From NCBI GenBank assembly GCA_950295325.1, contig OX485806.1, positions 17,918,001-17,982,000 on the forward strand: a stretch of 64,000 nucleotides of DNA, read 5' to 3'. The position numbers were made by a program, and so were the translations under genes. How positions within the stretch are numbered: the stretch's first letter is position 1; every line of letters begins with the position of its first letter. Source of the stretch: Polytrichum commune (Eukaryota > Streptophyta > Polytrichopsida > Polytrichales > Polytrichaceae). Below, in pieces: positions 14,530-54,345 of the stretch. The notes below the pieces were generated by a model. It was not told the DNA's origin and did no database searches. It saw only the letters and a program-made list of their open reading frames with translations.

Positions 14530-14849
14530 TGAAGCAAGAATGCAGAGATTACACAAGTATCTGTGTATGTGAGAAATGCAATGGAAATGAAAATTTACTT
14601 CTATTTGTTCTATCTCTATTACATCCTACGGAGTACACTCCTGTGCCTGATGCTTCTATTCTGATCTGTCTAGCATTGCCATGTCTGCGGCGTACTAACC
14701 CTGACACACTACGTAGACGACGTCTACAGTTCCTTTTCTATCTCTATTTGTACTCTTTCCTGTAAGAGTCTAGAAGGTTCCTCTAGTTGTTTGATGGAAT
14801 TCATCCAGGTGGATGACAATGAGCGTATGCTTTCATTGTTCATCCATTA
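14530..14849 (-). repeat. Copia 3' LTR (left copy)
   Basis: 320 bp, near-identical to 20164-20483. The left edge TGAAGCAAG abuts the CTAAG target duplication. The right edge CATCCATTA abuts the polypurine tract. Confidence 0.93.
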
Positions 14850-14858
14850 CTCCCACTC
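14850..14858 (-). other. Polypurine tract
   Basis: On the minus strand GAGTGGGAG lies immediately upstream of the 3' LTR. This is the expected position of the plus-strand primer, and it supports the LTR boundary at 14849/14850. Confidence 0.7.
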
Positions 14859-15144
14859 GCGCATTTGTCATCCACCAAGTCCTAACTCTAGTTGTCTTCT
14901 GGTCTAGTTCTTTTAGCCCTAATTTTAACCCTAAACTAAAGTCCCTTGATTGCATGTGCAATCGGATTAAATCCTATATGGGCAATGATGGCCCTGTGTG
15001 GATGATCGGATCGCTATGATCATTTCATGGTATGTCCATTGCTTTTCATCATAGCTCGGTATGGCAGTGTGGCTGTCTTCTCAGAGCTCTCTTGCTTAGA
15101 AGTTTTCGTTTGTTCATTCGTGACGTTCTTCATAGCTTCTCTGC

Positions 15145-15330
15145 TTGTGCGCCTCTCGCACTTCTCAGGGCTCCTTCTCATTCTCCTTCCTTTGGTCTCC
15201 TGTGCTCAGTAGGGGTTCCTTCGTGTTCGCTTCATCTCTATTGCACGTGCGCCTCTTGCGCTTCTCAGGGCTTTCTTCTCTTAATCTGGATCTCCTTCCG
15301 CCTCTTGTGCTCAGTAAAGGTTACTTCGTG
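15145..15330. repeat. Direct duplication in the copia 3' non-coding region
   Basis: GTGCGCCTCTCGCACTTCTC (15145 on) recurs as GTGCGCCTCTTGCGCTTCTC (about 15249), each followed by CAGGGCT and later 'TGTGCTCAGTA..GGTT'. The segment lies between the end of pol and the 3' LTR and keeps a spurious long plus-strand frame open. Confidence 0.65.
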
Positions 15331-15632
15331 TGTGCGCTCCTGATGTCCAGATCTGCACAACTTTTGTGCCTTTTGTGTTCTTCTTCATCTCTCTTAGTCG
15401 TTTTTTGCAATATGTGTTTTTTGATAATGCTTTACTTTGCTACTAATTGCTTGCTGTGTTTTCTATCCTATTCTATTTGCTTGACTCTTCGTGTCTTACT
15501 AATCCTGCTTCTTGTGTTGTTGCTAATCTGCGATTACGTTTCTATTTTGCTATCAATTTGCTCACTGTACCTTGTGGCTAACCTGTTCTACCTACTTGTC
15601 TTTTCTGGTTCTACTAATCCTGCTTGTTGTTG

Positions 15633-18600: not shown

Positions 18601-20046
18601 TTCTGAGATGCTGTTTGTGTTGCTTACACTGGTAGTTGTGAGAGCAGTAGATGACTCTTGTGCTGGTACTAAACTTGTCTCCAATGAAGATGGTGGGATA
18701 GGATTAATGGAGAGTCTATACAGTGTACCAATTTGAACGCCTTCCATTACTTTCGGTCCTTTGCCTAAGTCTTGGTATAAGGCACATTTCTTTCCAAGAG
18801 TTTGAAAAGACAATCCGGCTTTCGATGCAAGACCAATGGAGAAGAGGTTGCGGCGTAACTCAGGTATATACAATACCTTTTGTAAGACCCCTTTCTTGTT
18901 AACTCCGTCAACTGTTCTTGTGATGATGATATCACTGATGCCCAATACCCAGAGGTTTCTGTCATCTGCAACAACTACTGACCATGTATCGGATGGGATA
19001 GGCTTAAAAGTTGTAAACCAGTTGCGATGTTCAGTCATGTGCTCTGTAGCACCTGAATCTGCAAACCAAGCTTTCTTGTCCAGACTAACGCTATAAGCAT
19101 GTGATTGTTTGCTTATAACTGCAAAGGCAAACGAATTGTTCTCTGAATCAGAATGAGAGTTACTGGAATCAGAATTAACCTGTTCAGTAGCTGCAACACA
19201 GGCCTCACTGCGATGACCTCGGACATGTTTCTGATGTTGATTAGAACGCCCTTTGGAGTTGTTTGAGTGCTTGGTTTTCTCTTGGCGAGGGTGAGGGCAT
19301 TCAGCTGTCCAGTGATCCAACTCCCCGCAGTTGTAGCACCTTGTTCGGCTTTTCAGTTCTTTGATGTAGGTCTTCGCATTCTCATGGCTGTGCTTCTTTG
19401 TGTTGTGCGAGGATGCTCTGCTGGAGCGAGTGAAGAAGGCGGAATCTCTTGCTGTGTCACCGCTCTGTTTTGTCAAGATGTGTTCGAGTTGGAGCAGTCT
19501 GATCTTGAGATTCGGGATAGTCTGCTGCTCCTCGGGAACATTTGCCCAAGCTGTAATGACACTGTTGTAGTTAGCAGGTAAAGTGCCCATAATTTTTGTT
19601 ATTATCATGTCCTCACTTAGTGGTTTTCCTAGATCTTTGAGAAGATTACCTATGCTGATAATCTTGGTAATGTGGGTGCTTATATCATCACCCATGGTCA
19701 TTTTATATTCAAAGAAACTGTTCTGGATGGACTGGATGTTTTCTTTTGACCTTCTTTGGTAGAATGAACATAGTGAATGCCACATCTCAGCTGAGGTTTC
19801 ACAGTTTACCAGACTTTCAAGAATGTTCATAGTGACTGACGATCCTATCATTGTCTTTGCCAGATCATCACGTTCAGCCCATGCTGCTCGTTCAGGCTCC
19901 GGAGCATCCGCATCCGGCTTGGGAAGCGAGCCATTGACAATGGACTTAACTTTCTTTGTAGAAAAGCAAAGCTCCATGTAGAATTTCCATACAGGAAATT
20001 TAGTTCCATCAAAGACCCTGATATATTCAGAATCCTTTTTCTCCAT
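15633..20046 (-). pseudogene. Copia gag-pol polyprotein, broken by stops and a frameshift
   Basis: Translation begins at ATG 20046. The first 772 codons hold a gag domain, zinc knuckle CYNCGELDHWTAEC (residues 237-250), protease DSG (330-332), and integrase HHCC (H504, H509, C539, C542) with D571 and E670. The second integrase acidic residue is replaced: position 634 reads TNRGGEF where the family has a D. An amber stop at 17728-17730 and another at 17122-17124 lie in the same frame. Reverse transcriptase follows (QFDIGTAYLNSDL, then FVDD near 16640). It is split by a one-base shift in an A-run near 16815. A TGA at 16140-16142 precedes RNase H ([21 protein letters not shown]). Domain order shows Ty1/copia. 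These lesions predict no autonomous activity. Confidence 0.93.
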
Positions 20047-20148
20047 GTTCTTTAGTCAGAAAAGAACAATAACTCTTTACAGAATTTGTGATAGACAAGA
20101 TAGACAAGATAGTCAAAGAAAATTCAAGCAAATGCGTATTTCTCTCAC

Positions 20149-20163
20149 GGTGGGCCCATAACC
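20149..20163 (-). other. Primer-binding site matching the initiator tRNA-Met anticodon arm
   Basis: Directly inside the 5' LTR the plus strand reads GGTGGGCCCATAACC. As I remember plant initiator tRNA-Met, this is its anticodon stem-loop, including CAU. The retroelement RNA would therefore pair with the 3' end of a 5' half-tRNA, as described for Drosophila copia, and not with the usual 3' acceptor end (TGGTATCAGAGC). Confidence 0.75.
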
Positions 20164-20483
20164 TGAAGCAAGAATGCAAAGATTACACAAGTATCTGTGT
20201 ATGTGAGAAATGCAATGGAAATGAAATTTTACTTCTATTTGTTCTATCTCTATTACATCCTACGGAGTACACTCCTGTGCCTGATGCTTCTATTCTGATC
20301 TGTCTAGCATTGCCATGTCTGCGGCGTACTAACCCTGACACACTACGTAGACGACGTCTACAGTTCCTTTTCTATCTCTATTTGTACTCTTTCCTGTAAG
20401 AGTCTAGAAGGTTCCTCTAGTTGTTTGATGGAATTCATCCAGGTGGATGACAATGAGCGTATGCTTTCATTGTTCATCCATTA
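20164..20483 (-). repeat. Copia 5' LTR (right copy)
   Basis: 320 bp. It differs from the left LTR at about two bases (GCAAAGATT versus GCAGAGATT; GAAATTTTACT versus GAAAATTTACT). It is followed by the CTAAG duplication at 20484-20488. Confidence 0.93.
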
Positions 20484-20488
20484 CTAAG

Positions 20489-29492: not shown

Positions 29493-31142
29493 TCAACAAG
29501 AGTAATGCCCACTGCTGAGAACTTTGAGGCTTTCGTATTCATCGCCCTTGGCAACACCTTCGTCGACATAACAAAGTTGGTATTCTGCCTTCTTGAGGGT
29601 ATGAAGCCCCCTCTTCAATAGTTTCTGCCACCCACGCCTCTCCCTCAAGGCTTTCACCAAGTCTGCTGTTCTCTGGGACGGATCCAACACAAGAAGGAAA
29701 ACCTCCTCGGACAAACCCAATCGCCGCCGTCGTTCAACACCCACAATTGTTCGTGAGTGGCCCTCGTGCTGGAAATATAGTGGCGAGCGTTTGCTAAGAG
29801 TAATTGGTTGCCGAAGCCGGTCCAACGCACTCGTAAACGACGAGTTTCGATTCATTGATGATGTTGTTGTTTTCTCCATGAAGTAGTTCCACACCCAATC
29901 GACCATCTGCTGGTGCTTGTTCATCACCTCTTTACCCTCACCTTTCCCATTCCCAACACCCCCAAAGTTGACAGCACTATAACCCTCAGCCATCACTCGG
30001 TCTTGCTTATTTGCGCTGTTTCGGAGCCCTATCATACACGAGACACACAGATCGTTATTCCTCATATTTGCATGGCAGTACCTCGTTCCCTGAATAGGAA
30101 ACTCTCCACAAACTGTACACTCCCCTTCCTCTGATTCCACGGGCGAGGGTTGCCTTGACGGCCCTGAGCCTGACTCGGGGATTTGCAATGCATAGCAGCT
30201 AGTGGTGCTTCCTGAGGCAATCTTCTGAGCTACCATCATCTCCTTACCTGGCTTTCCAAACGCTTGAAAATCGACGATCCTTGCATACATGCCGAACGAA
30301 CGCAACAAGGCCGCGCACTCGGTCGTGCCAATCCATTTCTGCGTCCCGTCAATTTCCCAATCAAAATATTCTGCACCTGGTGTATCAAACCCTTTTGCCC
30401 ATGCGATTTCTAACCATCTCTGCAATGCAAGAATGTCTGGCACGAACCCACAACCCCCAAACAACACATTCTTTGCCTCCGGGTTTTGCATGAGCAAATG
30501 GGAGGATAACATCTGAATGTTCCTCCACCCACAGCCCCATCCCAGATCTTCCTGGTGGCGGCTCTCAAAGTGCTCCACGTAGCCCGAGAGCACGACGGTC
30601 GAAAATCCTCCTCCCTTTAAATCAGCTTCCAGACATTTCTGCAGGAGCCGGATCACGCCTTCTTTCACTGGGAACACTGTCTCGCGAACTTGGCACCCTA
30701 CCAAGGATTTCACATTCTCCTCCAAGGTTTTCCCACGAAGGCATTTGTTCAGTTGCCACTCGCTTGGCTGGCCCTCTGAGTGGCGCGCCCTTTTGCTTAA
30801 ACTCCTGTCGCAGCTTTGTGCAAGATTGCTCGCAGCCTCTTCCAGGGCTAACCTGTGCTGCAAGCAGTGTGAATCCCATTCGTGGATTGGCACATCCTGG
30901 TTGCAACCCCGGTCACAACTCACAAAGTCTAGGAAAACCCCGTCTTCCTCAAAGTGGGGATCCTTGTCTAAATCAGAGCTGCAGCCCAGTGGGTCGCTCA
31001 TTGAGGCAATCCGCTGGGCCATGGCCATGTCCCTGGCCGCTTCCTCCTCATCGAGATGGCTGTTCACATGAAGGTCAAGGAGTACCAGGGGCACGATGCA
31101 ATTACAAAGAGGGCACTTATCCTTCTTCTCAGGTTCTTCCAT
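29493..31142 (-). CDS. Peptidase C78 family, ZUFSP/ZUP1-like zinc-finger ubiquitin peptidase
   Basis: Intronless, 549 residues from ATG 31142; the frame extends two codons further up but only to a TTG. Two N-terminal C2H2 fingers (C10/C13/H25/H29; C76/C80/H92/H96) precede a C78 papain-like domain. It has GWGCGWRN with nucleophile C204, GHSRTIVG with H462, and LVLDPS with D487. Animal ZUFSP/ZUP1 uses this triad to cut K63-linked ubiquitin chains in genome maintenance; the related UFSPs process UFM1. The Cys-His spacing is about 258 residues, far larger than the roughly 130 I recall for human ZUFSP. The excess includes a Cys-rich segment (C342, C345, C356, C366, C369) resembling a ZZ finger (CTVCGEFPIQGTRY...DLCVSC). 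Substrate choice (ubiquitin or UFM1) cannot be settled from sequence. The 5' flank is a tandem repeat containing copies of the start region. Confidence 0.9.
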   Translation of the reverse strand: MEEPEKKDKCPLCNCIVPLVLLDLHVNSHLDEEEAARDMAMAQRIASMSDPLGCSSDLDKDPHFEEDGVFLDFVSCDRGCNQDVPIHEWDSHCLQHRLALEEAASNLAQSCDRSLSKRARHSEGQPSEWQLNKCLRGKTLEENVKSLVGCQVRETVFPVKEGVIRLLQKCLEADLKGGGFSTVVLSGYVEHFESRHQEDLGWGCGWRNIQMLSSHLLMQNPEAKNVLFGGCGFVPDILALQRWLEIAWAKGFDTPGAEYFDWEIDGTQKWIGTTECAALLRSFGMYARIVDFQAFGKPGKEMMVAQKIASGSTTSCYALQIPESGSGPSRQPSPVESEEGECTVCGEFPIQGTRYCHANMRNNDLCVSCMIGLRNSANKQDRVMAEGYSAVNFGGVGNGKGEGKEVMNKHQQMVDWVWNYFMEKTTTSSMNRNSSFTSALDRLRQPITLSKRSPLYFQHEGHSRTIVGVERRRRLGLSEEVFLLVLDPSQRTADLVKALRERRGWQKLLKRGLHTLKKAEYQLCYVDEGVAKGDEYESLKVLSSGHYSC

Positions 31143-31800
31143 GGACAATGTATCAAACTGTTTGCCCTTACACCCTAAACCCTACAAAGGGGGCACTTAT
31201 CCTTCTTCTCAGGATCTTAAACATACAATATTTCAAACTCTTTGCCTTTAAACCCTCAATTTACAGAGGGACAGTTATCTTTCCTCTCAGGTCTCTCATA
31301 GAGAGAATATATCAAGTTCTTTGCCCTTGAACCCTGTACCCTACACAAGGGGCACCTTATCCTTCTTCTCAGGCTCCCGTGGAGAATTATATCAAATTCT
31401 TTGCCTTTAAACCCTAAACCCTATAAAGGGGCACTAATTTGTCTTCTCAGGTTCTTCCATGAGAACTTGATAAATTCTTTGCCCTAAAACACTAAACCCT
31501 AGAAAGGGGGCACTTATCCTTCTTCTCAGGCTCTTCCATGGAGAATACATGAATATCTTTACTTTCAAACCCTCAAACTTCAAAGGGGGACCTTCTCAGG
31601 TTTTACCATGGAGAGAATAAAACAAATTCCTTGTCCTTGAACACTGAACCCACAAAGAGAGCACTTCTCCTTCTTTTCAGGTCCTTCATGCAGAGAATAT
31701 TATCCACTTCTTCGCCCTTAACCCCTAAACTCTACAAAGGTTTCATCCTTCTTGTCAGGATCTCCCATGAAGAAGGGATCAAATTCGTTGCCGTTAAACC
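31085..31800. repeat. About nine tandem ~80-bp units amplifying the peptidase start region
   Basis: The minus-strand phrase CCTGAGAAGAAGGATAAGTG, with its CCATGGAAGAA start context, is the true first coding segment (31100-31142). It recurs in decayed form about every 80 bp (CCTGAGAA near 31208, 31286, 31367, 31446, 31525, 31592, 31675, 31755). Each unit also carries a telo-box-like AAACCCTAAACCC. Several upstream copies keep an ATG in good context (near 31455, 31540, 31605) but are followed by divergent, mostly closed frames. They are candidate upstream ORFs or regulatory telo-boxes of the peptidase gene. Confidence 0.85.
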
Positions 31801-37744: not shown

Positions 37745-38545
37745 CAACACCAGGCTTCAAGCCCCAATCTACAAAAACTTATACCAAGTGCAAACAAACT
37801 CTGATTTCAACTTTTTTTTAATATCAATTAAATTCCCTCCTCTACACTTATTTGAATTTTGAACCCCAACCTCGTATTGCACATTACCATACTTGGCTTG
37901 AAGCCCCAAAACCCAAAAAAATATACTAAGTGCAAACGACCTCCGATTTCAAATATGTATTTTATCAATATTCATGAAAGTCTCCCCTCTATAGTACTAT
38001 CTATTTTAAGCCCTAACATAGTACTATAGTACACCATGCTTGGCTTCAAGCCTCAATCTTCAAAAACTCATACCAAGTGCAAAGGAACTCCAATTTCAAA
38101 CTTTTTCTTCAATAATTTTGAAATTCTCTCATGTACACTTATATCCAATTCACACCCCAACATGGTACTGCACTCTACCATGGTTGACTTCAAGCCCTAG
38201 TCTCTAAAAACTCATTCCAAGTGCTAACGGACTTTGATTTTTTGATAATTTTTTTACGTTAAGAAAATTCTCTCCTCTACAAGTATGTGGATTTTGCAGC
38301 CCAACATGGTAATTCATTGTACCATACATGGCTTGAAGCCCTAGTCTCCAAACATTCATACCAAGTATAAACAAACTTTGATTTCAAGTTTTATGTTTTT
38401 GAATGGTCATGAATTTCCCTCCTCTAAACTTATGTTGATTTTGCATCCCAACATGAAATCATGTAGTTCTATACTTGGCTTCAAGCCCCAATCTCCAAAA
38501 ACTCATACCAAGTGCAAACAAAGTCAGTTGCAAGAAAGAAAAAAA
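37745..38545. repeat. Tandem array, six units of about 146 bp
   Basis: 'GGCTTCAAGCCCCAATCTCC' variants start near 37750, 37895, 38042, 38187, 38330 and 38476. Each is followed by 'AAAACTCATACCAAGTGCAA', 'CTCCTCTACACTTAT' and 'AACATGGTA'. The array stops where the inverted duplication begins (38546). Confidence 0.85.
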
Positions 38546-38767
38546 TCCCCGTTGTCCAATCATGATGAACATTGCTAAGAGTTGTTGGGATTTTGCAGTA
38601 AAAACCACGGGAGTAAAATTCCTTGCCCAAAGACAAAACCTCCAATAAAAAAGCACGAGCCCAAATAAAAGTCACTAACTTGCCTCACGACAAACTTCTT
38701 CTCACTATAAACACTGGAGGTTTTCAGGGCCAAAAGAATAAAAATAGAACTTGCTACCATGCAAAGC

Positions 38768-39150
38768 TACACTGAATATGATATTTAGTGTCACCAATTC
38801 CAATTGTCTTGCTCAATACTAATAATTGTAAACCGCAATGTACTGTCACCAACAACTAAATGCTAACCCAACTTCATTTGTCCTTCCTTGTCAAGTTCTT
38901 TGGGGGTTGTAGATTGAAAGCGTTGCAATTACTGTCACTCACCAAGTGATTTTTCATCCCAGTTCTAATCATCCGTGACAATATATCATCACAAGTTCCT
39001 GACACGAGAACTTGGTAGGGTTTTGCTCAATGCATGAACTCATCCATCATCCATGACAATATTTGTTCACTTACTCACAAGAAGTGTCATCCGAGAAGTT
39101 ACCATAGTGACATAAAATACCATATGACACTAAACATCATATTTAGTGTA
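38768..39150. mobile_element. TA-duplicating MITE copy in the left arm (379 bp)
   Basis: 38770-39148 begins CACTGAATATGATATTTAGTG and ends CACTAAACATCATATTTAGTG, flanked by TA. Its mirror copy at 50891-51266 in the right arm shows it was already present when the region duplicated. Confidence 0.82.
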
Positions 39151-39398
39151 GTATGCTCACCGTAAATAAGGTAGCCACTTCATTAGGTATTATAGTCCAT
39201 GTTGAATGCATTCACGCTTTCCTATACAATAGTACACATACTTCACCACTTTCCCTTGGAACCATTAAACCCTATCTCATATGCGCATTATCATAATCTG
39301 TGCATTTCCACTATCACAGTTGTAAAACGTGGACACTTTTTCTGGTTGTCAAGCCTGAATTATCCCCTCTAGAAAGAACAAGGAAAAAAACGAAAAGA

Positions 39399-39413
39399 AG
39401 AAGAAGAAGAAGA
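39399..39413. repeat. (GAA)n microsatellite
   Basis: Five GAA/AAG triplets inside the left-only segment 39375-39894, which holds no recognised gene. Confidence 0.8.
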
Positions 39414-40080
39414 CATTTATTTCCTCACCCAGGGCTCAAAATGCATGTTTGAAAGACCGACCTTATGCTCGGCTCTGCTCAGAAACGGATCTTGTGAAGG
39501 CTACTTATTGTATGGACATTGATGATCCACACTGCTGGCGGTCGAGAGCAATTTCTAGCTTTCCTTGTGAAGACCTCCAAAGCTCCTTTTGCACACAAAG
39601 ACTGAGGCCAAAGTCGAGAAAGCAGAAAGAATCTGTGGGCACAATTTTTAAGCTCATCAGGAGGAGGCTCGGCCAGGCTGTGTGAGTTGAGGCCGGGATT
39701 GTAAAACCGGAATCGTGACAAGACAAGGCCCTTGCTGATCCTGGAGATGCGTTCAACGATGAGAAGAATGAAGGAACCGAGATTTGGAGACCCTTTCATG
39801 ATCGAGTGTCTAAGGGCTTCGTGAGCTCTGATAAGTAAGAGAGTGGAGCGAGGGCCCTATTTAGGCAGGCTAAGCGGCTTCCTTGTATGCACGTAGATTC
39901 ATAATTTAGTGAAGAAGTAGGTAACAGACCAAGTGGTTCTGTACAAAAGAGAGGGGTCGTTTGAGGTATGACAGATTCTGCTATTTGCGATGAATCAAGC
40001 TTTTCATATCCAGGGTTCATCACTTTAGCATCCTCAAGAAATGTTACATTAATGATCCATGATTCATGCTGGGGATGACT

Positions 40081-42801
40081 TTACGTGGCCCCTCCGCCCA
40101 ATTCAGACGACAGAATCCACAAGATGGTTAGCAACTCGCCGCCTTGGGTGAGCTTCGCACAATGCTCCACAGTCTTGCCAACGTTTGCCAAGCAAGCAAT
40201 GAAGTGAGCGGCCGAGTCTCTGATGAGGGTCCAACGGTCTTTCATGGACATACAATCCACCAACAGAACGGCCAACTCGCTACTGTACGTTGCAACGTCA
40301 ATTGCATGATCCAAATGGGCGAATCCTTTCTCCGTCATGTTGGCAATGCATTGTTTAATGATATCCTCGGATCTATGTTCCCCTGGTTTTAGAGCGGGGA
40401 TCTGTAGGCTTTCAACTCTACACCTCGTCACCTCCACCCACTTTGTATCCTTGGTGATTTGTGTGTGGGCAAGTCGCAATTCAGCAGCAACCCTCATCTT
40501 GGTGAGTTCCAAGTGCGTGGGAAGGAGGTCCGGGCAAATGGTCAACAAACGACATATATAAGCCATCAACCACAAAGCTTGGTTACGTAATTCATCACAA
40601 CCTGCACTTGGATGCACACATTCTTTCTCATTGAAGGTGGATTTCTCTTCGGAAATATTGCCATTGGAGATGATTTGGATTCCTCCCATTACTTTCTCAT
40701 TGAAGGTGGATTTCTCTTCGAGAATATTGCCATTGGAGATGATTTGGATTTCTCCCATTTCTTTCGCATCGAAGGTGGATTTCTCTTCGGAAATATTGTC
40801 ATTGGAGATAATTTGGATTTCTCCCATTTCTTTCGCATCGAAGGTGGATTTCTCTTCGGAAATATTGCCATTGGAGATGATTTGGAGTTCTCCCGTTTCA
40901 TCCTCCCCAAGTCCATTGGCAACCTGAACGTAGTTGTGTGACATTTCTAAGATCAACACCTTCAGTGTCCCTATCCACCATCTAAGGAGGACAGTCTCCC
41001 AATCGCCTTTGTAATATGCAACGAAGATGTCCAAATTATCCCGTATATGTAATGGGGTTTTGATCCCGATTTTTTTGTGCGAGAAATGTTCACTCCACAC
41101 ATCATAATTGGCATAACTTTCTACCAATTGTAGCACAATATCAAGGGCCGGGGTCTCTTGAGCTTGAATACCTTCCAATCGAGTTTTGAATACGCTTTCA
41201 TTCAATGATACTGTACAAATCATCTGATCCCAACCAATTTGGAGAATGTACAGTTTGTTTTTCAACCAATCGGATTTTGAGCAAAGACGGCATAAGAAAT
41301 TAGAGCGTGGAAGATAGGTTCCTTTACTTGTGGAGAATTTCTTTTGGAAGAAAGTGTTTGACCAGAGCGATAACTTGCACATGCAGAGGACAAAAGAAGC
41401 TTGTAGGTCTCTTAATGATCCCTGGGACCTCCGCCGCTCGGTTCTCACAACAGCCGCCAACATTGCTACGACTGCCCGTTTGCTAGCGAGAAGTCTCAAT
41501 AGGTATGCGATTTCAACCACAAATCCCATTGCTAGAACAATACATGTAGCATCCTTGTTAAGGCTAGTGTTGTATGCACGTGCGCCCCATATAATTTCAT
41601 CGGCGTTTCTGACATACAAGGGGCTGGCAATGATCAAAACCAATGCCCCAAACAAGGCCATGCTGCACAATACACGAAGCATCAGTTGTGACAGGTACGT
41701 ACTTGGATTCGTGTACTTCGCATATAGCCAATTGTACAAAAAGTCTCCCTCGATGCGAATGTAGTCCACCCACTCCTGTTTTTTGATGAAGTCTTCGTTC
41801 AAGAACCACAACTTCCGCATCTTGGATTGGCTACTCTCGTGCACTTGTTCCAATCTGCTGAGAGTAATTACGCGCCGCAAATATGCGAAGGATGATGCAA
41901 ATGCAACAGACAATTGACAGGCGCGCACATATTCAGAACGGGAAAACTTTGCACGAACCACTTTGAAAATATCTGCTGTAGTGACTAGATTCCTCAATGC
42001 AGCCAACTCGTTTCTAGCTCTTCTGTCCGCCGACCATGATGGTGATTCTTTTTGACCAATTATGGTTTCGTACCATGAAGGCAATTCTTTTCCAACTCTT
42101 GTGGCCTCATACCATTCCTTCCCCCCTGCCACAATGTATTGCAAGTATTCATCATGATCTGAGCTTCCATTGTGGGGCGGGGACCCGTCATGGTGGATCA
42201 TTGGACGTTGTTGGAACATCATGTATTCGTAGATCGATGACACCTCTTGAGCTATTCCTTTGCGGCTACTTTTCTTGAGTGCGTGATTGCGTTCCCAATC
42301 TCGAAGCACACCTACCACAAACACAAGGAGTGTGGGAATGAGGAAGAAACCTCTTGTGTTGATGGCGATCACATAACCGGCCGTCACAACTTGGAGCGCT
42401 AAGTAGAACAAGTGACGTAACCAGAGCTCGCTATCAGCTCGCTCATAAGCTGTAAAATTGTCTGGGCCGCCTAGATGGTAGATGAGAAGAGCACTCCAAA
42501 GGCCGAAGATTCCACAATGCAGCGTCTTTCTAGAAAGTAGTCCCAACAGAAAGGTCGCCAATATATCAGCCCCGACATATGCCAACCAAGCATACAACCT
42601 CACTTTCGATGTGTGTTTTCGTAGCTCACCCGTGATGAGGAGCACAAGCTGCAGCACGAGACTGGCAACAAGAAATATAGCCGGGTAAGTGTCTTCCCAG
42701 GCGCCCACCACTATTGCTACATCTTGCTGCACCATAGATGCTTTAACTTGTGTTGCAAATGTCACAGACACTGGATTTGCGTGTGAAATGTTACGTCCCA
42801 T
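40081..42801 (-). CDS. DUF4220/DUF594 integral membrane protein, intronless
   Basis: 906 residues from ATG 42801; the frame extends 32 codons further up only to a TTG, through repeat-derived sequence. The DUF4220 part has five predicted membrane segments (about 41-58, 71-89, 96-110, 129-146, 152-165). It contains the family hallmark HLGGPDNFTAY (109-119) followed by E-LWLRHL. Two more membrane segments (about 372-394 and 419-438) follow FLYNWLYAKY. The C-terminal about 75 residues match DUF594 (AAHFIACLANVGKTVEHCAK, GGELLTILWILSSELG). The family is expanded in plants and its function is unknown. A 23-residue unit is repeated four times (about residues 635-730). The last 138 codons are duplicated head-to-head at 49319-49735. 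The frame is fully open, so the gene is probably functional. Confidence 0.9.
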   Translation of the reverse strand: MGRNISHANPVSVTFATQVKASMVQQDVAIVVGAWEDTYPAIFLVASLVLQLVLLITGELRKHTSKVRLYAWLAYVGADILATFLLGLLSRKTLHCGIFGLWSALLIYHLGGPDNFTAYERADSELWLRHLFYLALQVVTAGYVIAINTRGFFLIPTLLVFVVGVLRDWERNHALKKSSRKGIAQEVSSIYEYMMFQQRPMIHHDGSPPHNGSSDHDEYLQYIVAGGKEWYEATRVGKELPSWYETIIGQKESPSWSADRRARNELAALRNLVTTADIFKVVRAKFSRSEYVRACQLSVAFASSFAYLRRVITLSRLEQVHESSQSKMRKLWFLNEDFIKKQEWVDYIRIEGDFLYNWLYAKYTNPSTYLSQLMLRVLCSMALFGALVLIIASPLYVRNADEIIWGARAYNTSLNKDATCIVLAMGFVVEIAYLLRLLASKRAVVAMLAAVVRTERRRSQGSLRDLQASFVLCMCKLSLWSNTFFQKKFSTSKGTYLPRSNFLCRLCSKSDWLKNKLYILQIGWDQMICTVSLNESVFKTRLEGIQAQETPALDIVLQLVESYANYDVWSEHFSHKKIGIKTPLHIRDNLDIFVAYYKGDWETVLLRWWIGTLKVLILEMSHNYVQVANGLGEDETGELQIISNGNISEEKSTFDAKEMGEIQIISNDNISEEKSTFDAKEMGEIQIISNGNILEEKSTFNEKVMGGIQIISNGNISEEKSTFNEKECVHPSAGCDELRNQALWLMAYICRLLTICPDLLPTHLELTKMRVAAELRLAHTQITKDTKWVEVTRCRVESLQIPALKPGEHRSEDIIKQCIANMTEKGFAHLDHAIDVATYSSELAVLLVDCMSMKDRWTLIRDSAAHFIACLANVGKTVEHCAKLTQGGELLTILWILSSELGGGAT
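40612..40905 (-). repeat. In-frame 69-bp tandem repeat (23 residues, four copies)
   Basis: GAAGGTGGATTTCTCTTCGG starts at 40633, 40702, 40771 and 40840, exactly 69 bp apart. The protein unit reads approximately EIQIISNGNISEEKSTFDAK. Copies are nearly identical, so the expansion is recent. The unit is acidic and Ser/Asn-rich and lies in the cytosolic or loop region between the membrane part and DUF594. Confidence 0.93.
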
Positions 42802-42802
42802 G

Positions 42803-42872
42803 GTGCACTTGGAAACACTAGGATCTCGACCGATTATGCCCGAAAATCTCCCCGGACACTGTTCTGGCCAGA
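42803..42872 (-). promoter_or_regulatory. Repeat-derived leader of the DUF594 gene
   Basis: On the minus strand GTGTCCGGGGAGATTTTCGG, GCATAATCGG and GAGATCCTAGTGTTTCCAAG run up to the ATG. They match base for base, with few changes, the left end of the repeat copy at 3634-3695. The terminal sequence of a 'TGTCCGGGGAGA' element has therefore become the 5' leader or promoter-proximal sequence. Confidence 0.7.
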
Positions 42873-42879
42873 ATTTTGT

Positions 42880-45743
42880 CGTTAGTGCTCTCCACAACAG
42901 TATGATAACCCCGTAATAGCATTTCCGACCTCAAACTATTGAAAAGATTGAAAAAATACACCAGCCATGCTTACATACCTCGCCCAATCACGCGCACAAT
43001 TGACTCCCACTTCGCAAGCCCAGGGCCTAGTAAGCTGAAGGAACTGCGAAATATTCAAGCCCCACGAACCTCTCTATTGCACAAGTCGAATGCCGGGGAG
43101 TCAATTTAACAGTTGATGGGACTCCTCATGACTTCCTGTTCAAGGCTCCAGGGCACACCCAGTAGCCTTAAGATTCGTAAATCTGAAAGCCCCATAGAGA
43201 ACCAAGTAAACAACCGAGTGGAATGAAATGGTTTACGCAAGGACAACTAATCCACCAAAACAAAATTCAATGAACACAACAGAACAAAAACCACGGTGAC
43301 ACAAGACTCGGTGAAGAAGGACAAGAACTCAAAGAAACTCCTCATCCTTCTAGGAGAGCACTTGGCTTGCAATCACGGAATCATCGCCACCTAAACCAAA
43401 CTTCTCTTAGAATTGCAAACAACATCTTGCACTACATTGCATCGTAAATTTGAGAAGAAACATGACACGTCAAGCTGTAAGAGTTTGACAAGATCGAAAT
43501 GTTTACATATAGTGGAGCTGTGTGAGAGAGCTTCGTAGAGAATTTAGGAATGAAAGCTAGACACAGCACAACCGTGGGAGGCGGAAGGAGGCATGTACAT
43601 AACATGGTGCAAATGATCGGTGAGAACCGGCTGTAGACCAAATCAGTTTGTTTTCCCAAATTACCGACTCTAAATTAAAACTCTAAGAAATAAACCAAAC
43701 CATACTTTGGAGAAATTATTATTTTAAGTCAAACTACAAGGAATTAATAAAGTATTTCAATGAATGACCGGTTGATGATAAAGAAATAAGGGTGGGTTTT
43801 CATGTACACCACTCGTTCATTAGATTCTAGATAGCAGTGGGTTGAAGGTGTTCTCATGCAGATAAATAAAAGCAAGCAACCGACCAACCACATTCTAGCT
43901 GCCTACTAGAATATGAAGGGCCGTGGCCATGAGCCGTCAGTAATACTACGGTTGTGACGATCTCCCCACGGCTTGAACCAAACTTGGGAGGCAGAACCCG
44001 AATGAAGCAAAAGCGCAAGGAGTGAGAGAAAACAAGCAAAGAAGCGGCAGAGGGGTGCTAGAGGTTGCCACCAACATTGCTAAGGAGCTGTCCACCACCA
44101 CCGAAGACTTGCCTACCTTAACCAACGTGTGAGTGCAAGATTGCAAGTGTCGAAAATAACTTAGCTAGCAAACTCATAACAAGGTGACTTGCAAAAGTGG
44201 TACTGACACATACTAGCAACGAGACATCTACAACACACCCTTTAAGGCCAGGTAAGGAGATGCCCACCTGCACTATTTACCAATAATCAATTTAGTGGCG
44301 TAGACTGTTCTTCTATGAATAAATCATTTAATTAACCATATTCAGTGTAGTGGGCTGAGGAGGACTGTCGTCCACAGAAAGAAAAAGACAACATTCACAT
44401 GTCGGTAGAATGCACATCTCCTGCGATAATCATGGCTTGGAAGTGTTGTCTGTACAGATACATTGGTCAAGAGGACAGACTGACCTGCAAAATGCTCCCA
44501 TGCCCCAGGAATCAGCGGGGGATATGCCAGGGTTCGGGAGATTTTTGAGCTCAACTAGCTAAAATCCGCCCCTTCACAACTTCTACCGGTTCTCTCATGA
44601 TTTGACCAATTGCAAACTTGTTGCCATTAATTTGGACCAGCCAATATCTTATATTTTTTCAAGTGTCGGTTAATTTCCTCTTCATTGTAATGACAACTGG
44701 CCAAAAACTTGGGCATTGATAAATAAGCTGGTTTTCCAATGTAGCAAAATTATATCCACAAACAACACACATCATTCAACAACAACGTCCAAAGAATATG
44801 TTAACATACAACAATAATATGTTATGATATTAACATCCAACAACAATGATCAACAATTTATCCATTTTTGAACCTGAAATAACCCATCAACTAGTTGATG
44901 GCCATGGATTTACTCTTCTATCATACCTAGATCTTAAAACCTCATATTAGATTTGAGGCCATAGCATGATAAACGAGTAACCTAACATACCATATTATAT
45001 ACAAAAATGAAATTCATCAACTTTTAGAGTCAAAATCAACAGAATCATCTTTCACCTTCAAGAGTAAAACGCCCTAAAAGGTATCTCTGTGGATGTGAAA
45101 ACAACCATCTAAACTTTGTAGAGTTCCTCCATAAAGCTATGGCTTTCATTAGTACGTTATCAAGATCACCATGAAGATCTTCCATAGACACACGCATAAT
45201 ACATTCTGAACGCTAGCCGTCAACAATGGAATGCAATAATGAAACAAAAGCTTTGCGTGTCCCCCATTCACCAAATCGCTACAAGCCTACAACGAACACG
45301 TAACCTAAACCCCAGAATTAGATGATATCCGGCCCTAGATGAATTAAAACGGATGAAATCTACCTATTTCACAATTCATCCGGGTAAAAAATCCTCCTCC
45401 TCAAAATGGTAGCTGGTTGAAATCCGTTTTAATTTTATTTTTTGAAAGCACCGGTTTCACATCCTCCACTTTCCCAATTCAACCGGACTCTTCACAAAAC
45501 CAACCGGCCGCCATTACACTAAATACCGGTTCTCCCCGGACATTGGCCCAAGGATATGCACACGGAGAACCATAATCATCCATTCATCATACATCTTTGT
45601 AGTCAGAACCTGAGATGGGACTCTATCATGGGAGGCTTCAGTTTTGAGTTTTTAATTGTGGCTGATGCCATGGGGCCCAATTAATGCGAGAAACGGGGAG
45701 ACAAAATCAGAAGAAAAAGAAAATCCACACTTGAAATGTAAAT
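42880..45743. other. Intergenic left-arm sequence; no gene recognised
   Basis: Apart from its pairing with the right arm, no open frame here resembles a known protein. It includes the uninterrupted site TAACTTAGCTAGCAAACTC (about 44157-44175), which corresponds to the MITE insertion site in the right arm. Confidence 0.5.
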
Positions 45744-46058
45744 GGAGACTACAAAGGCGTTAAGTGGTAAGTGTTACTTGAATGTCTACTACCTTCTTTG
45801 TATATTATGCCCTATTGTATCTCTTAACTAACTAATATATTACATAAAATCATATATTATAACATATCATATAAAACATCAAATAAACCCGCAATTAGAA
45901 ATGATGAAGTCTGGGATATTGATTGCAAGTCCCTCTCAAGTCTCATCAACTCAGTTTGCCCCAGTTGCTTGAACCATAGTGTGTCCAACATCTAATGAGA
46001 TAGTTATGCTTGTTAGACATTCAAGTAACACTTAACACTTAACGTCCTTGTAGTCTCC
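45744..46058. mobile_element. MITE-like element with about 45-bp terminal inverted repeats
   Basis: The left end GGAGACTACAAAGGCGTTAA, then GTGTTACTTGAATGTCTA, is mirrored at the right end (TAGACATTCAAGTAACAC, then CTTGTAGTCTCC). It is 315 bp and sits next to the inner edge of the left arm. No clear target duplication was found, so the superfamily is open. Confidence 0.7.
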
Positions 46059-47214
46059 TCGAATAGGGAAGAGAAAAAATGTTAATACATATGGAATTTT
46101 AACACTTGTAGAGGTGATAGATATAGAGGGCAAACTGTATTAGCCTCCCATAATTGTGCATATTCTCAATTGTTTTTGGGGATATGGGAGGATGTGGACA
46201 GTTTGAAGAACTTGCAAAGGGTGTCTAGTGCCATCTCTAATCTTATGTCTATGTGCAAACTAGGGTTGAGATTTGCACCCATCACAAACCCCAAATGTCT
46301 GAAATCAAAACCCCAAGTGTCTACATGAAGCACATTTGACGGGTATGACGGGAATGTGGTCGGTATCTAACAGGAGCAAATCTCAACACTGGTGCAAACG
46401 ACAATTTTTAGGGCATGAAACATAAGATGTGATGCGGCATCATGTTGTTCGAGAAGAAGTCTATGGGCGATGAAAGTAGCTTGTGGCTTCTGGTGAGGTC
46501 ACGTTGCCTGTGCTTTCTTGACTGTCGGATTTGACCGATGTAACCCTCCTCCCCTGATCTCCTCCGTTCCTACCACCACTCATCCACTGCTTTGTGCATA
46601 TGTATGTATGTACCCTTGAAAGCTACTCCCTTGCCATTTCTAGACTTGATTTGGCTTTTTTTATTCCCCACCCCCCTTTGGCCCCATGGCTTCACTCATA
46701 ATTAAACATTTGGAACAAAAGCCTCCATCTTCCGTCAAGAATCAATGATGTCTGATAGGTAAGCAGAATAACTGTGCTACAATTTATGCATATTTGTCAA
46801 AGTATTGAGTTTTGGAGCATGGAATCATGTCAACAGTGTGAAAAATGTACAATATAGAACATTCTTCGACCATTAGGGCACTCATAGTCCAAAATAGTTA
46901 ATTCTTGTAGACATTCAACTATAAAAGGGTTGGGTCCAGATCTTCCGTCTGAATAGGGCACTTCCGTATTAGTTCCTGCCTGGAACAGGATCTATGAAGG
47001 GGGAGATACAACCGTTAGTTACAGATGGGCGGGTTGAGTTTGAGAAATACGCAGTTCAAGTTCAAGAATTAGGCACATCAACGTTCATCTAAGAGGAATC
47101 TAAGAGGAATCTATAGAATATATATCTTGAATCAATAAAGAAAAACCGAAAGATATCAACATGCAACCGGGTGGACATCATGAAACGCAGCATCCTGAAA
47201 CCGCATGAAAGTTG
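46059..47214. other. Central spacer of the inverted duplication; no gene recognised
   Basis: Includes a minus-orientation partial copy of the 'TGTCCGGGGAGA' family at about 47000-47195 (GGTTGAGTTTGAGAAATA, AACCGGGTGGA). Otherwise plain AT-rich sequence. Confidence 0.45.
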
Positions 47215-47547
47215 CTCCATTCACATTTCAGGTGTGATTTTTCTTATTCTTCTAATTTTGTCTCCCCGTTGCTCCCATTAATTGGGCCCCATGACATCAG
47301 CCACAATTAGAAACTCAAAACTGAAGCCTCCCATGATGGAGTCCCATCGCAGATTCTGACTACAAAGATGCCTGATGAACGGACGGTTAGGGTTCTCCGT
47401 GTGCATATCCTCCGCTGATTCCTGGGGCATGGGAGCATTTTGCAGGTCAGTCTGTCCTCTTCACCAATGTATCTGTACAGACAACACTTTCAAAGCACGA
47501 TTATCGCAGGAGATGTGCATTCTGCCGACATATGAAATGTTTTCTTA

Positions 47548-47765
47548 GTTTTTGGGCATAGGTGGTCAAGATCCTAGCTAGTAATTCTAAATCCAACCGG
47601 TTACATGTTGACATCTTCCGGTTTTACTTTATCGATTTGAGGTAGATTCGATAGATTGCTCTAAAATGATTGGTAATCCTCCTGAAGTCTCGAACTTCAC
47701 CAGCTTATTTCTCAAACTCAACCAGTTCATCTGTAACTAACTGTCAGTTCTCCCCGGACAGTGGT
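47548..47765 (+). mobile_element. 'TGTCCGGGGAGA' family copy, right arm only
   Basis: Runs from TTTTTGGGCATAGGTGGTCA through CCAACCGGTTACATGTTGAC to AGTTCTCCCCGGACAGTGG. The left arm lacks it at the matching point (about 44345-44385), so it was gained after, or lost from one arm since, the duplication. Confidence 0.65.
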
Positions 47766-47963
47766 CCTTAGCCCACTACACTGAATTTGGTTTATTAATT
47801 ACTTTATTTTTAGAAGAACAGTCTAGGCCATTAAATTGATTATTGGTAAAAAGTGTGGGTGGGCGTCCTCATACATGCTTTTTAAAAGGCTTGTTGTAGA
47901 TGTCTCATTGTTAATATATATTTGTATTACCTTTGCGGGTCACCTTGTTATGGGTTTGCTAGC

Positions 47964-48331
47964 TAAGGGCCGGTTCACACTATGCCCAAGTCGAGAGGAG
48001 AAGCGTCACTTTTCTAGACCAAACTACGTCGAGAGGAGAAGCCTTTGGGTTGAAAAAGTATATTAAAATAATCCACAGCTAAAAATGTTCGGCCTCTCGA
48101 TGGAAGTTTGGGTCGAGCATTTTGCTCGACCCAAACTTGGCTCGAGAGGCCGAACTCTTCCCGCCATATTTTCCTAAACGTGCCGCCACCTAGGCTCTTT
48201 TGGAGGCGATGTCCTTTGGACTTCGGCCTCTAGTGTGAAGGCTAAGAGGACGAACTTTGGACATTTATGCATTTTCATTGGTCGAAACGCTTCTCCTCTC
48301 GAAGTTTGGCCATAGTGTGAACCGGCCCTAA
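47964..48331. mobile_element. Tourist-like MITE (362 bp) with internal hairpin, right arm only
   Basis: 47967-48328 begins GGGCCGGTTCACACTATG and ends with the exact inverse CATAGTGTGAACCGGCCC. The duplication TAA flanks it (47964-47966, 48329-48331). The left arm keeps the empty site with a single TAA (about 44160), which directly proves insertion and boundaries. The centre holds a 69-base hairpin (48087-48155): 14 paired bases, a 3-base internal mismatch, 16 paired bases and a 3-base loop. Confidence 0.92.
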
Positions 48332-49318
48332 GTTACTTTAGACAAGTGCAGTGTTACACTCACACGTTGATGGTTGTGCACTCACAGCTGTAGGCCAATC
48401 TTTGGTGGTGGTTGACAACTCCTTGACAATGTTGGTGACGACCTCTAGCACCCCTTTGGCGCTTCTTTGCTTGTTTTCTCTCACTCCCTGACCTTTCACT
48501 TTACTCGGGATGTGCCTCCCAAGCTTGGCTCAAGCCGTGGGGTTATCGTCACAACTGTAGTATTACTAACGGCTCATGACCACCGTCCTCTGTATTCTAG
48601 TAGGCAACTAGAATGTGGTTGGTTGGTTACTTTTTGTTTATCTACATGAGAACACCCTCAACCCACTATTATCTAGAATCTAGTGGGCAAGTGGCGTACA
48701 TGGAAACCCACCCTTATTTCTCTATTATCAACCGGTCATTCATTGAAAAACTTTGTTAATTCCTTGTAGTTTGACTTTGTTAATTCCTTGTGATTTCTCC
48801 AAAGAATGGCTTGGTTTATTTCTCAGAGTTTTAATTTAGAGTCGGTAAGTTGGGAAAACAAACTGATTTGATTTATAGCCGGTTCTCACCGATCATTTGC
48901 ACCATGTTATGTATATGCCTCCTTCCGCCTCCGACGGTTGTGTTGTGTCTAGCTTTCATGCCCCAGGCTTCTCTACGAAGGCTTCTCACACATATATGTA
49001 AACTATGAAGCTCCACTACATGTAAACATTTCGATCTTGTCGAACCTTACAGTTTGACGTGTCATGCTTCTTCCCAAATTTATGATGCAATGTAGTGCAA
49101 GATGTTTGTGATTCTGATAGAAGTTTGGTTTAGGTGGCGACGATTCCGTGATTGCAAGCCAAGTGTTCTCCTAGAAGGAGGTCAAAGTGAGGAGTTTCTT
49201 TGAGTTCTTGTTCTTCTTCACTTAGTGTTGTGTCACCGTGGTTTTTGTTTTGTTTTGTTTTGTTCATTAAATTTTGTTTCGGTGGATTAAGTTGTCCTTG
49301 TGTGTTTCATTCACCAAG

Positions 49319-49735
49319 ATGAGGGTTGCTGTTGAATTGCGACTTGCCCACACACAAATCACCAAGGATACAAAGTGGGTGGAGGTGACGAGGTGTAGAG
49401 TTGAAAGCCTACAGATCCCCGCTCTAAAACCAGGGGAACATAGATCCGAGGATATCATTAAACAATGCATTGCCAACATGACGGAGAAAGGATTCGCCCA
49501 TTTGGATCATACAATTGACGTCGCAATGTACAGTAGCGAGTTGACCGTTCTATTGGTGGATTATATGTCCATGAAAGACCGTTGGACCCTCATCAGAGAC
49601 TCGGCCGCTCACTTCATTGCTTGCTTGGCAAACGTTGGCAAGACTGTGGAGCATTGTGCGAAGCTCACCCAAGGCGGTGAGTTGCTAACCATCTTGTGGA
49701 TTCTGTCGTCTGAATTGGGCGGAGGGGCCACGTAA
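49319..49735 (+). pseudogene. Duplicated 3' end of the DUF594 gene, open for 138 codons
   Basis: Nearly identical to the last 138 codons of the gene at 40081-42801, in opposite orientation. I count eight base differences over about 420 bp, five of them amino-acid changing (A/V, A/T, T/M, A/T, C/Y). The frame starts at ATG 49319 (MRVAVELR) and keeps the native stop. It contains the DUF594 motif but no membrane segments. It is either a truncated pseudogene or a small new protein gene. It can also supply antisense RNA to the parent gene. Confidence 0.85.
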
Positions 49736-49925
49736 AGTCATCCCCAGCATGAATCATGGATCATTAATGTAACATTCTTGAGGATGCTAAAGTGATGAAC
49801 CCTGGATATGAAAAGCTTGATTCGTCGCAAATAGCATAATCTGTCATACCTCAAACGACCCCTCTCCTTTGTACAGGACCACTTGGTCTGTTACCTACTT
49901 CTTCACTAAATTATGAATCTACATC

Positions 49926-50665
49926 AATGATCGGGGAGATCCGGCAGCTAGTTGTAAGTTAGCCGAGTGAAATTGCAAAATTACCGATTTTTTTTGGGAG
50001 ATTTCGGCTGTATAACCGAGTTAAATATGAAGAGTATAGGAAATCAACCGACCAATATGAGATAATGTAGGAAATTTAACCCCTCAGGCTCAGAAAATGG
50101 CGGAAATGAGTTGGGTCTCCCGAGGGTATATGCGGATATTGGCTGGTCTCCCGAGGGTATGGGCGGATATTGAATGAGGGAGGTTCTCAACCGTGTAGGT
50201 CACAGGAAACTTAACGATGCTTTTGCTTCATTATTGCATTTCATTGTTGACGGCTAGCGTTTAGAATGTATTATGAGTGTGTCTATGGAAGATCTTTGTG
50301 GTGATCTTGATAATGTACTAACGGAAGCCACAGCTTTATGAAAGAACTCTACAAAGTTTAGATGGTTGTTTTCACATCCACAAAGATACCTTTCAGGGCG
50401 TTTTCCTCTTGAAGGTGAAGATGATATTGTTGATTTTGACTCTAACAGTTGGTGAATTTCATTTTTGTATATAGTATGGTATGTTAGGTTACTCTTTTAT
50501 CATGTTGTGGCCTCAAATCTAATATGAGGTTTTAAGACCTAGGTATGATAGAAGAGTTTATCCATGGCCATCAACCGGTTGATGGCTTATTTTAGGTTCA
50601 ACTCCTGCTACGGATAAATTGTTGATCATTCTTGTTGGATGTTGATATCATTACATATTATTGTT
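49926..50665. repeat. Right-arm-only segment including a transposed copy of 44800-45260
   Basis: 50215-50660 is the reverse complement of 44800-45260 (TTGACGGCTAGCGTT, GGTTGTTTTCACATCCACA, TGATGGCCATGGAT-type matches), but it is displaced from its expected mirror position. 50113-50175 holds a 35-bp direct repeat (GTCTCCCGAGGGTAT...GCGGATATTG twice). Confidence 0.7.
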
Positions 50666-50888
50666 GTAAGAGGGGATAATTCAGGCTTGACAACCAGAAA
50701 AAGTGTCCACGTTTTACAACTGTGATAATGGAAATGCACAGATTATGATAGTGCGCATATGAGATAGGGTTTAGTGGTTCCAAGAGAAAGTGTTGAAGTA
50801 TGTGTACTATTATATAGGAAAGCGTGAATACATTCAACATGGACTATAATACCTAATGAAGTGGCTACCTTATTTATGGTGAGCATAC

Positions 50889-51268
50889 TACACTAAATAT
50901 GATGTTTAGTGTCATATGATATTTTGTGTCACTATGGTAGCTTCTTGGATGACACTTCTTATGAGTAAGTGAACAAATATTGTCATGGATGATGGATGAG
51001 TTCATGCATTGGGCAAAGCCCTACCAAGTTCTCGTGTTAGTAACTTGTGATGATATATTGTCACGGATGATTAGAACTTGGATGAAAAATCACGTTGTAA
51101 GTGACAGTAATTGCAATGATGTCAATCTACAACCCCCAAAGAACATCACAAGGACAAATGATGTTGGGTTAGCATTTAGTTGTTGGTGACAGTACACTGC
51201 GGTTTACCATTATGAGTATTGAGCAAGACAATTACAATTGGTGACACTAAATATCACATTTAGTGTAG
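50889..51268. mobile_element. TA-duplicating MITE copy in the right arm (376 bp)
   Basis: 50891-51266 is flanked by TA. It is the mirror counterpart of 38770-39148. Confidence 0.82.
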
Positions 51269-51499
51269 CTTTGCATGGTAGCAAGTTCTATTTTTATTCT
51301 TTTGGCCCTGAAAACCTCCAGTGTTTATAGTGAGAAGAATTTTGTCGTGAGGCAAGTTAGTGACTTTTATTTGGGACTCATGCTTTTTTATTGGAGGTTT
51401 CGTCTCTGGGCAAGGAATTTTACTCCCGTGGTTTTTACTGCAAATCCCAACAACTCTTAGCAATATTCATCATGATTGGACAATGGGGAATTTTTATTC

Positions 51500-52185: not shown

Positions 52186-52187
52186 AA

Positions 52188-52520
52188 TCCAACACTTTAA
52201 GTCTAAACATCATAAGTCTAAAAACTATAAGAGTGAATACTATAAATCCAAATACTATAATTCCAATACTAAAAATCTAGATGCTAAAGCTAGGCACTTG
52301 TTCATGAATGTCTTGAGTCTAAACCACATCTAATACTAAACCACCATCAAGTGCTCCTATCCAATGTAAATCCAACACTATAAGTCTAAACATCATAAGT
52401 CTAAAAACTATAAGAGTGAATACTATAAATCCAAATACTATAATTCCAATACTAAAAATCTAGATGCTAGAGCTAGACACTTGTTCATGAATGCCTTGAG
52501 TCTAAATCACATCTAATAAT
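52188..52520. repeat. Direct repeat, two near-identical ~145-bp copies
   Basis: 'CCAACACTTTAAGTCTAAAC' (52188 on) through 'ATGTCTTGAGTCTAAACCAC' is repeated from about 52372 with few changes. The start points are about 182 bp apart. Confidence 0.88.
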
Positions 52521-54104: not shown

Positions 54105-54345
54105 ACCACTAATCGGGCAGAACCGGCGGTTAGTTGCAGATGAACTGGTTGAGTTTGAGAAATAACCGGTGGAAGTTGGAGACTTCAGGAGAATTACCGA
54201 TCATTTTAGAGGAATCTATAGACGAATATACCTCAAATGAATAAAGCAACACTGGAATAAGTCAAACATGTAACCGGTGGGATTTAGAGTCACTAGGATC
54301 TTGACCAACTATATATGCCCAAAAACTTTCCGGGCAAGTTTCTTA
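54105..54345 (-). mobile_element. 'TGTCCGGGGAGA' family copy, minus orientation
   Basis: Reading the minus strand gives TGGTCAAGATCCTAGTGACT, 'CCACCGGTTACATGTTTGAC' and 'AACCAGTTCATCTGCAACTA', matching the copies at 3.6 and 47.6 kb. Confidence 0.65.

Follow-up and report, generated by a model that had tools for sequence, protein, structure and literature searches.

Inverted repeat architecture

The window, i.e. the whole stretch of 64,000 nucleotides from Polytrichum commune that was analysed, contains a DUF4220/DUF594 gene on the minus strand with its first ATG at 42801 and its stop at 40081. The CDS of 2,721 bp is open over 906 codons. The next in-frame ATG is located at 42735, and translation may start there instead of at 42801. 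The Pfam score of the DUF4220 domain was 132.7 bits (cut-off 27) with E=3.1e-38, that of the DUF594 domain 27.3 bits (cut-off 21) with E=2.8e-06. In excerpts of the literature 14 entries for DUF594 are given for rice chromosomes 11 and 12 (PMC1261165), and mention of the family extends to papers on Populus and others.

Comparison of the window with its reverse complement by self-BLASTN yielded six collinear pairs of reverse-complement blocks in mirror order between 38540 and 51495. The left arm has the order A-B-C-D-E-F and the right arm F'-E'-D'-C'-B'-A', with an unpaired centre of 1,467 bp between them. The features of the locus are given below.

11274-11706: diverged relative of the repeat in block A (nhmmer)
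38540-39370, plus strand: block A, left; distal 3' side of the gene; pairs with 50669-51495; 94%, 41 differences in 826 sites
39893-40505, plus strand: block B, left; the gene's last 141 codons (stop included) and 188 bp of 3' flank; pairs with 49311-49922; 98%, 12 differences in 612 sites
40081-42801, minus strand: DUF4220/DUF594 reading frame, open, single exon; 906 residues from the first ATG
40506-43234, minus strand: left-arm segment without right-arm counterpart; start codon, DUF4220 domain and tandem repeats
40621-40899, minus strand: in-frame tandem repeat in the gene; 69 bp x 4 copies, 23-residue unit; not in the right arm
43235-44164, plus strand: block C, left; upstream of the gene; pairs with 48328-49303; 84% with gaps, 100 differences in 889 trimmed sites
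44160-44369 (trimmed from 44164), plus strand: block D, left; pairs with 47757-47967; 81%, 39 differences in 206 sites; most diverged block
44385-44527, plus strand: block E, left; pairs with 47403-47546; 93%, 8 differences in 130 trimmed sites
44528-45551, no strand assigned: private insertion of the left arm; 1,024 bp; encloses block G
45551-45747, plus strand: block F, left; pairs with 47215-47411; 90%, 19 differences in 197 sites
45748-47214, no strand assigned: unpaired centre; 1,467 bp; holds short repeat remnants and, at 46627-46727, an inverted F-like remnant of greater age
47215-47411, minus strand: block F', right (self-BLASTN)
47403-47546, minus strand: block E', right; contiguous with F' (self-BLASTN)
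47547-47756, no strand assigned: repeat-family stretch in the E'-D' interval; relatives at 54105-54327, 47000-47175 and 3647-3826
47757-47967, minus strand: block D', right (self-BLASTN)
47967-48328, no strand assigned: private element of the right arm; 362 bp; terminal inverted repeats GGGCCGGTTCACACTATG; TTA/TAA target duplication
48328-49303, minus strand: block C', right; gene-upstream region, abuts B'
49311-49922, minus strand: block B', right; carries the copy's 3' end, with the plus strand as coding strand
49271-49735, plus strand: open frame in B'; first ATG 49319; DUF594 E=8.7e-08
50219-50668, minus strand: block G', out of order; pairs with 44807-45251 inside the left-arm insertion; 90%, 36 differences in 437 sites
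50669-51495, minus strand: block A', right; pairs with block A

The inverted self-hits of A, B and C scored 1,281, 1,044 and 1,043 bits, respectively. As a control the window was resampled 20 times with a first-order Markov model; among the best five of the 20 replicates the top inverted self-hit was 38 bits over 23 bases. Compared with the 1,281 bits of A this shows that the block pairing is not due to chance. Thus the locus has collinear reverse-complement blocks beyond chance, which define an inverted segmental gene duplication. The outer limits agreed within six bases with those of the palindromic structure of about 13 kb that the first-pass annotation had placed at 38546-51499, and the blocks were recovered near the limits given there. 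Its ordered reverse-complement blocks were borne out as well, their number was not: instead of five we found six collinear pairs plus a seventh, G, out of order.

The identities from self-BLASTN include gaps, while the counts of differences per site exclude them. Poorly aligning ends beside insertions (C 44131-44164/48328-48361, D 44160-44163, E 44385-44397/47534-47546) were trimmed before the divergence, substitution-bias and 21-mer counts, and block G, not being collinear, was excluded from the pooled tests. The pooled and trimmed alignment of A to F showed 219 differences in 2,860 sites, a mean divergence of 7.7% with a span of 2-19% for the individual blocks.

Both arms are interrupted. 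The left-arm insertion at 44528-45551 has an 8-bp direct repeat, GGATATGC, at both sides, and the corresponding right-arm site is uninterrupted and has a single GGATATGC; we take the insertion to be hAT-like from the length of the 8-bp repeat only. For the right-arm element at 47967-48328 the left arm retains the empty site AACTTAGCTAGC. Its TTA duplication and termini are those of what is presumably a Tourist/PIF-Harbinger-like element. Elsewhere in the window, at 2259-2648, there is a fragment of a transposase frame (Plant_tran, PF04827, E=2.7e-28), which we assume is possibly of the kind that moves such Tourist-like elements. The stretch 47547-47756 is probably an insertion, too, with no clean target-site duplication seen at its ends. 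Because G lies within the left-arm insertion and G' in the unmatched gap between B' and A', block G most likely stems from a mobile element rather than belonging to the duplication.

The gaps between A and B, 39371-39892 on the left and 49923-50668 on the right, match neither each other nor show clean insertion ends, and for this reason A could have been copied separately from the rest. Two tandem arrays lie outside the palindrome: a 147-bp array (37753-38519, 5.3 copies) stops 20 bp short of block A's left outer end, and a 183-bp array (52186-52518, 1.8 copies) is located on the right side of A'.

A search of the window with nhmmer for further copies of the six block pairs gave only the relative of A at 11274-11706, the F-like remnant at 46627-46727 and weak matches of A and F with E-values of 0.004 to 0.08. 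The remnant (E=4.4e-06) is a third, older inverted version of block F at the centre of the palindrome, hinting at an earlier round of duplication. A scan of viral contigs had no match, and a scan of genome contigs gave 8 pattern matches with 0 confirmed; neither collection is plant-based, so these scans say little about relatives elsewhere.

The intact gene and its truncated copy

The gene and its copy are oriented head-to-head. The gene runs leftward on the minus strand, the copy rightward on the plus strand, and both 3' ends point outward. The plus strand of B' encodes the last 140 residues of the gene and the stop; 8 codons differ over these 425 bp. Of the bases in this common coding part 417 are identical (98.1%), in accordance with the 98% given by the first-pass annotation for an antiparallel copy of the gene's last codons. 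The arrangement that it described, in which an inverted duplication carries the gene's 3' end as a truncated antiparallel copy, was right. Two of its details have to be corrected, however. The common part is not the 3' third of the gene, but 425 of 2,721 bp or ~16% of the CDS, and, the copies being divergent, the gene is not turned towards its own 3' end.

The remainder of the gene is missing from the right arm. In a tblastn search with the 906-residue protein the right arm matched residues 764-906 only, and blastn of the segment 40506-43234 against the right arm (word size 7, E up to 0.01) returned no match. The right copy thus is without essential coding parts, i.e. the start codon and the DUF4220 domain, as is characteristic of a pseudogene copy. 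The end of C' at 49303 and the start of B' at 49311 are 7 bp apart, and a couple of bases of possible microhomology were seen by eye at this junction. The DUF594 domain of the copy scored 32.1 bits, above the Pfam cut-off of 21. The codon changes in B' comprise 5 that alter the amino acid and 3 that are silent; 77% of the sites are amino-acid-changing, and the number of changes is small.

Two further observations concern the intact gene. The segment 42804-42859 directly upstream of the first ATG is 87.5% identical over 56 bp to a repeat at 3634-3689, so that mobile-element sequence may be part of the gene's 5' end. The four 69-bp repeats at 40621-40899 are located between the DUF4220 and the DUF594 domain; the array is possibly length-variable between accessions.

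Uneven divergence of the arms

Divergence differed among the blocks with p=1.6e-17 in a test that treated coding part and flank of B separately. The arms showed a valley in B with 12 differences in 612 sites versus 100 in 889 sites of C, i.e. 2% versus 11% (Fisher p=5e-13). In sliding windows of 150 sites divergence was 0.7-4% in B, 7-15% in C, 23% at the C-D boundary and 7-9% in E-F. The longest identical run was 178 sites; none of 5,000 permutations gave a run of this length. The permutation test demonstrates uneven divergence; it does not separate gene conversion from differences in mutation rate.

Purifying selection on B' was considered as a cause of the low divergence and rejected. The 3' flank of B (4/187) was as conserved as the coding part (8/425). 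Silent sites and 3' flank of B together had 7 differences in ~282 sites, which is below C with p=1.3e-6; for the silent sites alone the count was 3 in ~95 (p=0.012 versus C). Because silent sites and flank are low as well and 5 of the 8 codon changes are protein-altering, protein constraint is no explanation. From the sequences of the two arms gene conversion appears the likeliest cause of the low divergence in B, and perhaps part of A was re-homogenised in the same way. Differences in mutation rate, e.g. by methylation or nearby insertions, possibly explain part of the valley. In excerpts of a study on rice (PMC2277409) 377 cases of gene conversion are given for 626 gene families; on one chromosome conversion was commonest for pairs less than 5 kb apart, and the frequency was ~9% in reverse and ~10% in the same orientation.

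Origin of the locus and the question of silencing

Taken together, we are confident that the locus is an ordinary inverted segmental duplication, in which the second copy is a truncated pseudogene with a conversion-like 3' end. As the paired blocks and their orientation show, a segment with the DUF4220/DUF594 gene and its up- and downstream flanks was duplicated in inverted, head-to-head orientation. The right copy would then have lost ~2.7 kb including the start codon and the DUF4220 domain, probably by end-joining; both this order and the mechanism are inferred. The deletion would have joined upstream sequence to the last 140 codons of the right copy. Later on, both arms would have gained private mobile-element insertions, two of which are demonstrated by the opposite empty sites. 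B, and perhaps a part of A, were probably homogenised again by arm-to-arm conversion, as the divergence valley suggests, and C' would at most drive a short sense RNA for a DUF594-only fragment of 138 residues. Alternatively, B' may have been truncated already when it was copied in. Event order and the polarity of changes were inferred from the two arms.

Inverted segmental or tandem duplications of plants with a truncated pseudogene likewise have collinear inverted blocks with one open and one truncated copy. They are also alike in arm-specific mobile elements and in uneven divergence compatible with conversion, as described in excerpts for rice (PMC2277409). We saw no essential difference to such ordinary duplications, the valley over the 3' end being pronounced here. 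The locus would thus be a natural example of how an inverted duplicate ages, i.e. by internal loss, private insertions and uneven, conversion-like divergence.

The first-pass annotation had inferred silencing. In this alternative, read-through of the palindrome or antisense transcription of the right arm would generate double-stranded RNA; Dicer products of B would silence the gene or its paralogues, and those of C would methylate the upstream region. We consider this unlikely, although some properties of the locus would suit it. Perfect matches of B to the intact gene are frequent with 394 of 593 21-mers and 375 of 590 24-mers, and perfect 21-mers also occur in A (249/811), C (51/876) and E (42/110). 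On the other hand, they number 0/186 in D and 8/177 in F, and C to F pooled have few (101/1,349). Between 59.5 and 63.9 kb the minus strand has four open frames of 100 residues or more, without Pfam match, which would be directed inward to the palindrome if they were exons. They are the nearest inward frames that might belong to a gene and stop at 59.5 kb, ~8 kb from A', and a nearer gene with short exons could be missed. The head-to-head layout, however, means that a transcript from the 5' side of either copy is sense only. B and B' are separated by 8.8 kb with at least two demonstrated insertions, so that a hairpin of B requires a transcript of ~10 kb; the same distance of 8.8 kb between the paired coding segments applies to the question of a miRNA precursor. 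No Rfam family was detected in the whole window at gathering thresholds, where a new miRNA would be absent from Rfam. Furthermore, the left frame is still open over 906 codons, and a C-to-T bias of one arm was not significant over the six blocks (85 versus 67, p=0.17). Methylation-driven decay of the right arm had been a candidate because in 7 of 8 coding transitions the left arm has C/G where the right arm has T/A. Yet the 3' flank showed the reverse (0 versus 3), and together with the overall p of 0.17 this led us to drop the argument. Apart from the 21-mers of B, the features tested lent no support to silencing.

The locus was also compared with known silencing loci. VIM4-VIM2 of Arabidopsis Cvi, according to excerpts of the report (PMC13213937), is a head-to-head inverted repeat that makes siRNAs, and therefore head-to-head orientation alone is compatible with silencing. 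It resembles the present locus in its orientation, in arms more similar than expected and in a deletion in its history. However, that deletion was intergenic and left a spacer of 50 bp between genes of 99.86% identity with detected siRNAs, whereas here the deletion affects the interior of one copy, 1,467 bp separate the two arms, which are interrupted and diverged, and divergence climbs to 23% in sliding windows. Of the near-identical arms and the short spacer of VIM4-VIM2 only B (612 sites, 2%) has a counterpart in being near identical. The authors propose 5'-extended transcripts that cross the spacer; in the excerpted text their RNA-seq reads did not span it (PMC13213937). PAI1-PAI4 are inverted plant duplicates as well, but tail-to-tail with an upstream promoter and transcribed from copy into copy (excerpts of PMC3203196), and the inverted duplicates of rice Lgc1 came to lie tail-to-tail after a 3.5-kb deletion between the genes (excerpts of PMC10647759). 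In both, transcription can enter the other copy, while the copies diverge here. Mu killer of maize, as far as excerpts of its description go (PMC3440606), shares internal deletion, partial duplication and inversion with the present locus. Unlike the latter it is transposon-derived, and antisense RNAs were detected: two short ones, incapable of large hairpins, are associated with silencing, which would speak for a right-arm antisense source. The head-to-head layout with a long spacer is absent among the silencing loci compared here (VIM4-VIM2, PAI1-PAI4, Lgc1 and Mu killer). A variant, in which the right arm is kept near identical by ongoing conversion and serves as a source of trans-antisense RNA or siRNA to tune DUF4220/DUF594 genes, seems quite improbable to us. 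If small RNAs were found, the locus would become a test of silencing by divergent long-spacer repeats and bear on the origin of small-RNA loci.

Three other explanations were considered. C' might drive a short mRNA for a DUF594-only protein of 138 residues from the ATG at 49319, which has a function of its own or disturbs that of the full-length protein. Indeed, the frame 49271-49735 is free of stops and frameshifts, its DUF594 score of 32.1 bits exceeds the cut-off of 21, and the upstream region C' is kept directly before it. An open frame is unsurprising with 8 changes only, however; 5 of these are protein-altering without a signal of purifying selection, and the low divergence is not specific to the protein, as flank and coding part show. 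Hence we deem an expressed truncated gene very improbable. The position of A at both outer ends in inverted orientation and its diverged relative at 11274-11706 would fit terminal inverted repeats of ~830 bp of a large gene-capturing transposon. Yet the interior is itself palindromic, and the outer flanks (left ...GCAAGAAAGA, right ATTCACCATAG...), compared by eye, have no direct repeat and thus no target-site duplication as expected of a transposon with long terminal inverted repeats. Within 38540-51495 there are 7 stop-to-stop frames of 100 residues or more; the 4 that were scanned contained no transposase by Pfam, and the other 3 are antisense within the gene. There is little chance that such an element is at hand. 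Fold-back chimeras are a known assembly artefact, and a chimera or misjoined haplotypes might mimic an inverted duplication. A chimera would be near identical, though, while the arms differ at 219 of 2,860 sites and each has a private insertion whose site is empty in the other arm. This divergence and the two insertions with empty sites make the probability of an assembly artefact negligible. Thus we favor the inverted segmental duplication with a decayed second copy.

Finally, the window contains further elements and a further gene outside the palindrome. A Ty1-copia retrotransposon at 14530-20485 has gag, integrase and reverse-transcriptase frames. Its long terminal repeats of 322 bp (14530-14851 and 20164-20485) are 99.4% identical, and the element is probably a recent insertion. 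A 381-bp self-complementary fold-back at 8009-8389 with 75% identity over 390 aligned positions is like a miniature inverted-repeat element. The minus-strand open frame at 29493-31181 has Peptidase_C78 and ZZ domains, and we presume that it is probably a UFM1-specific-protease-like gene.
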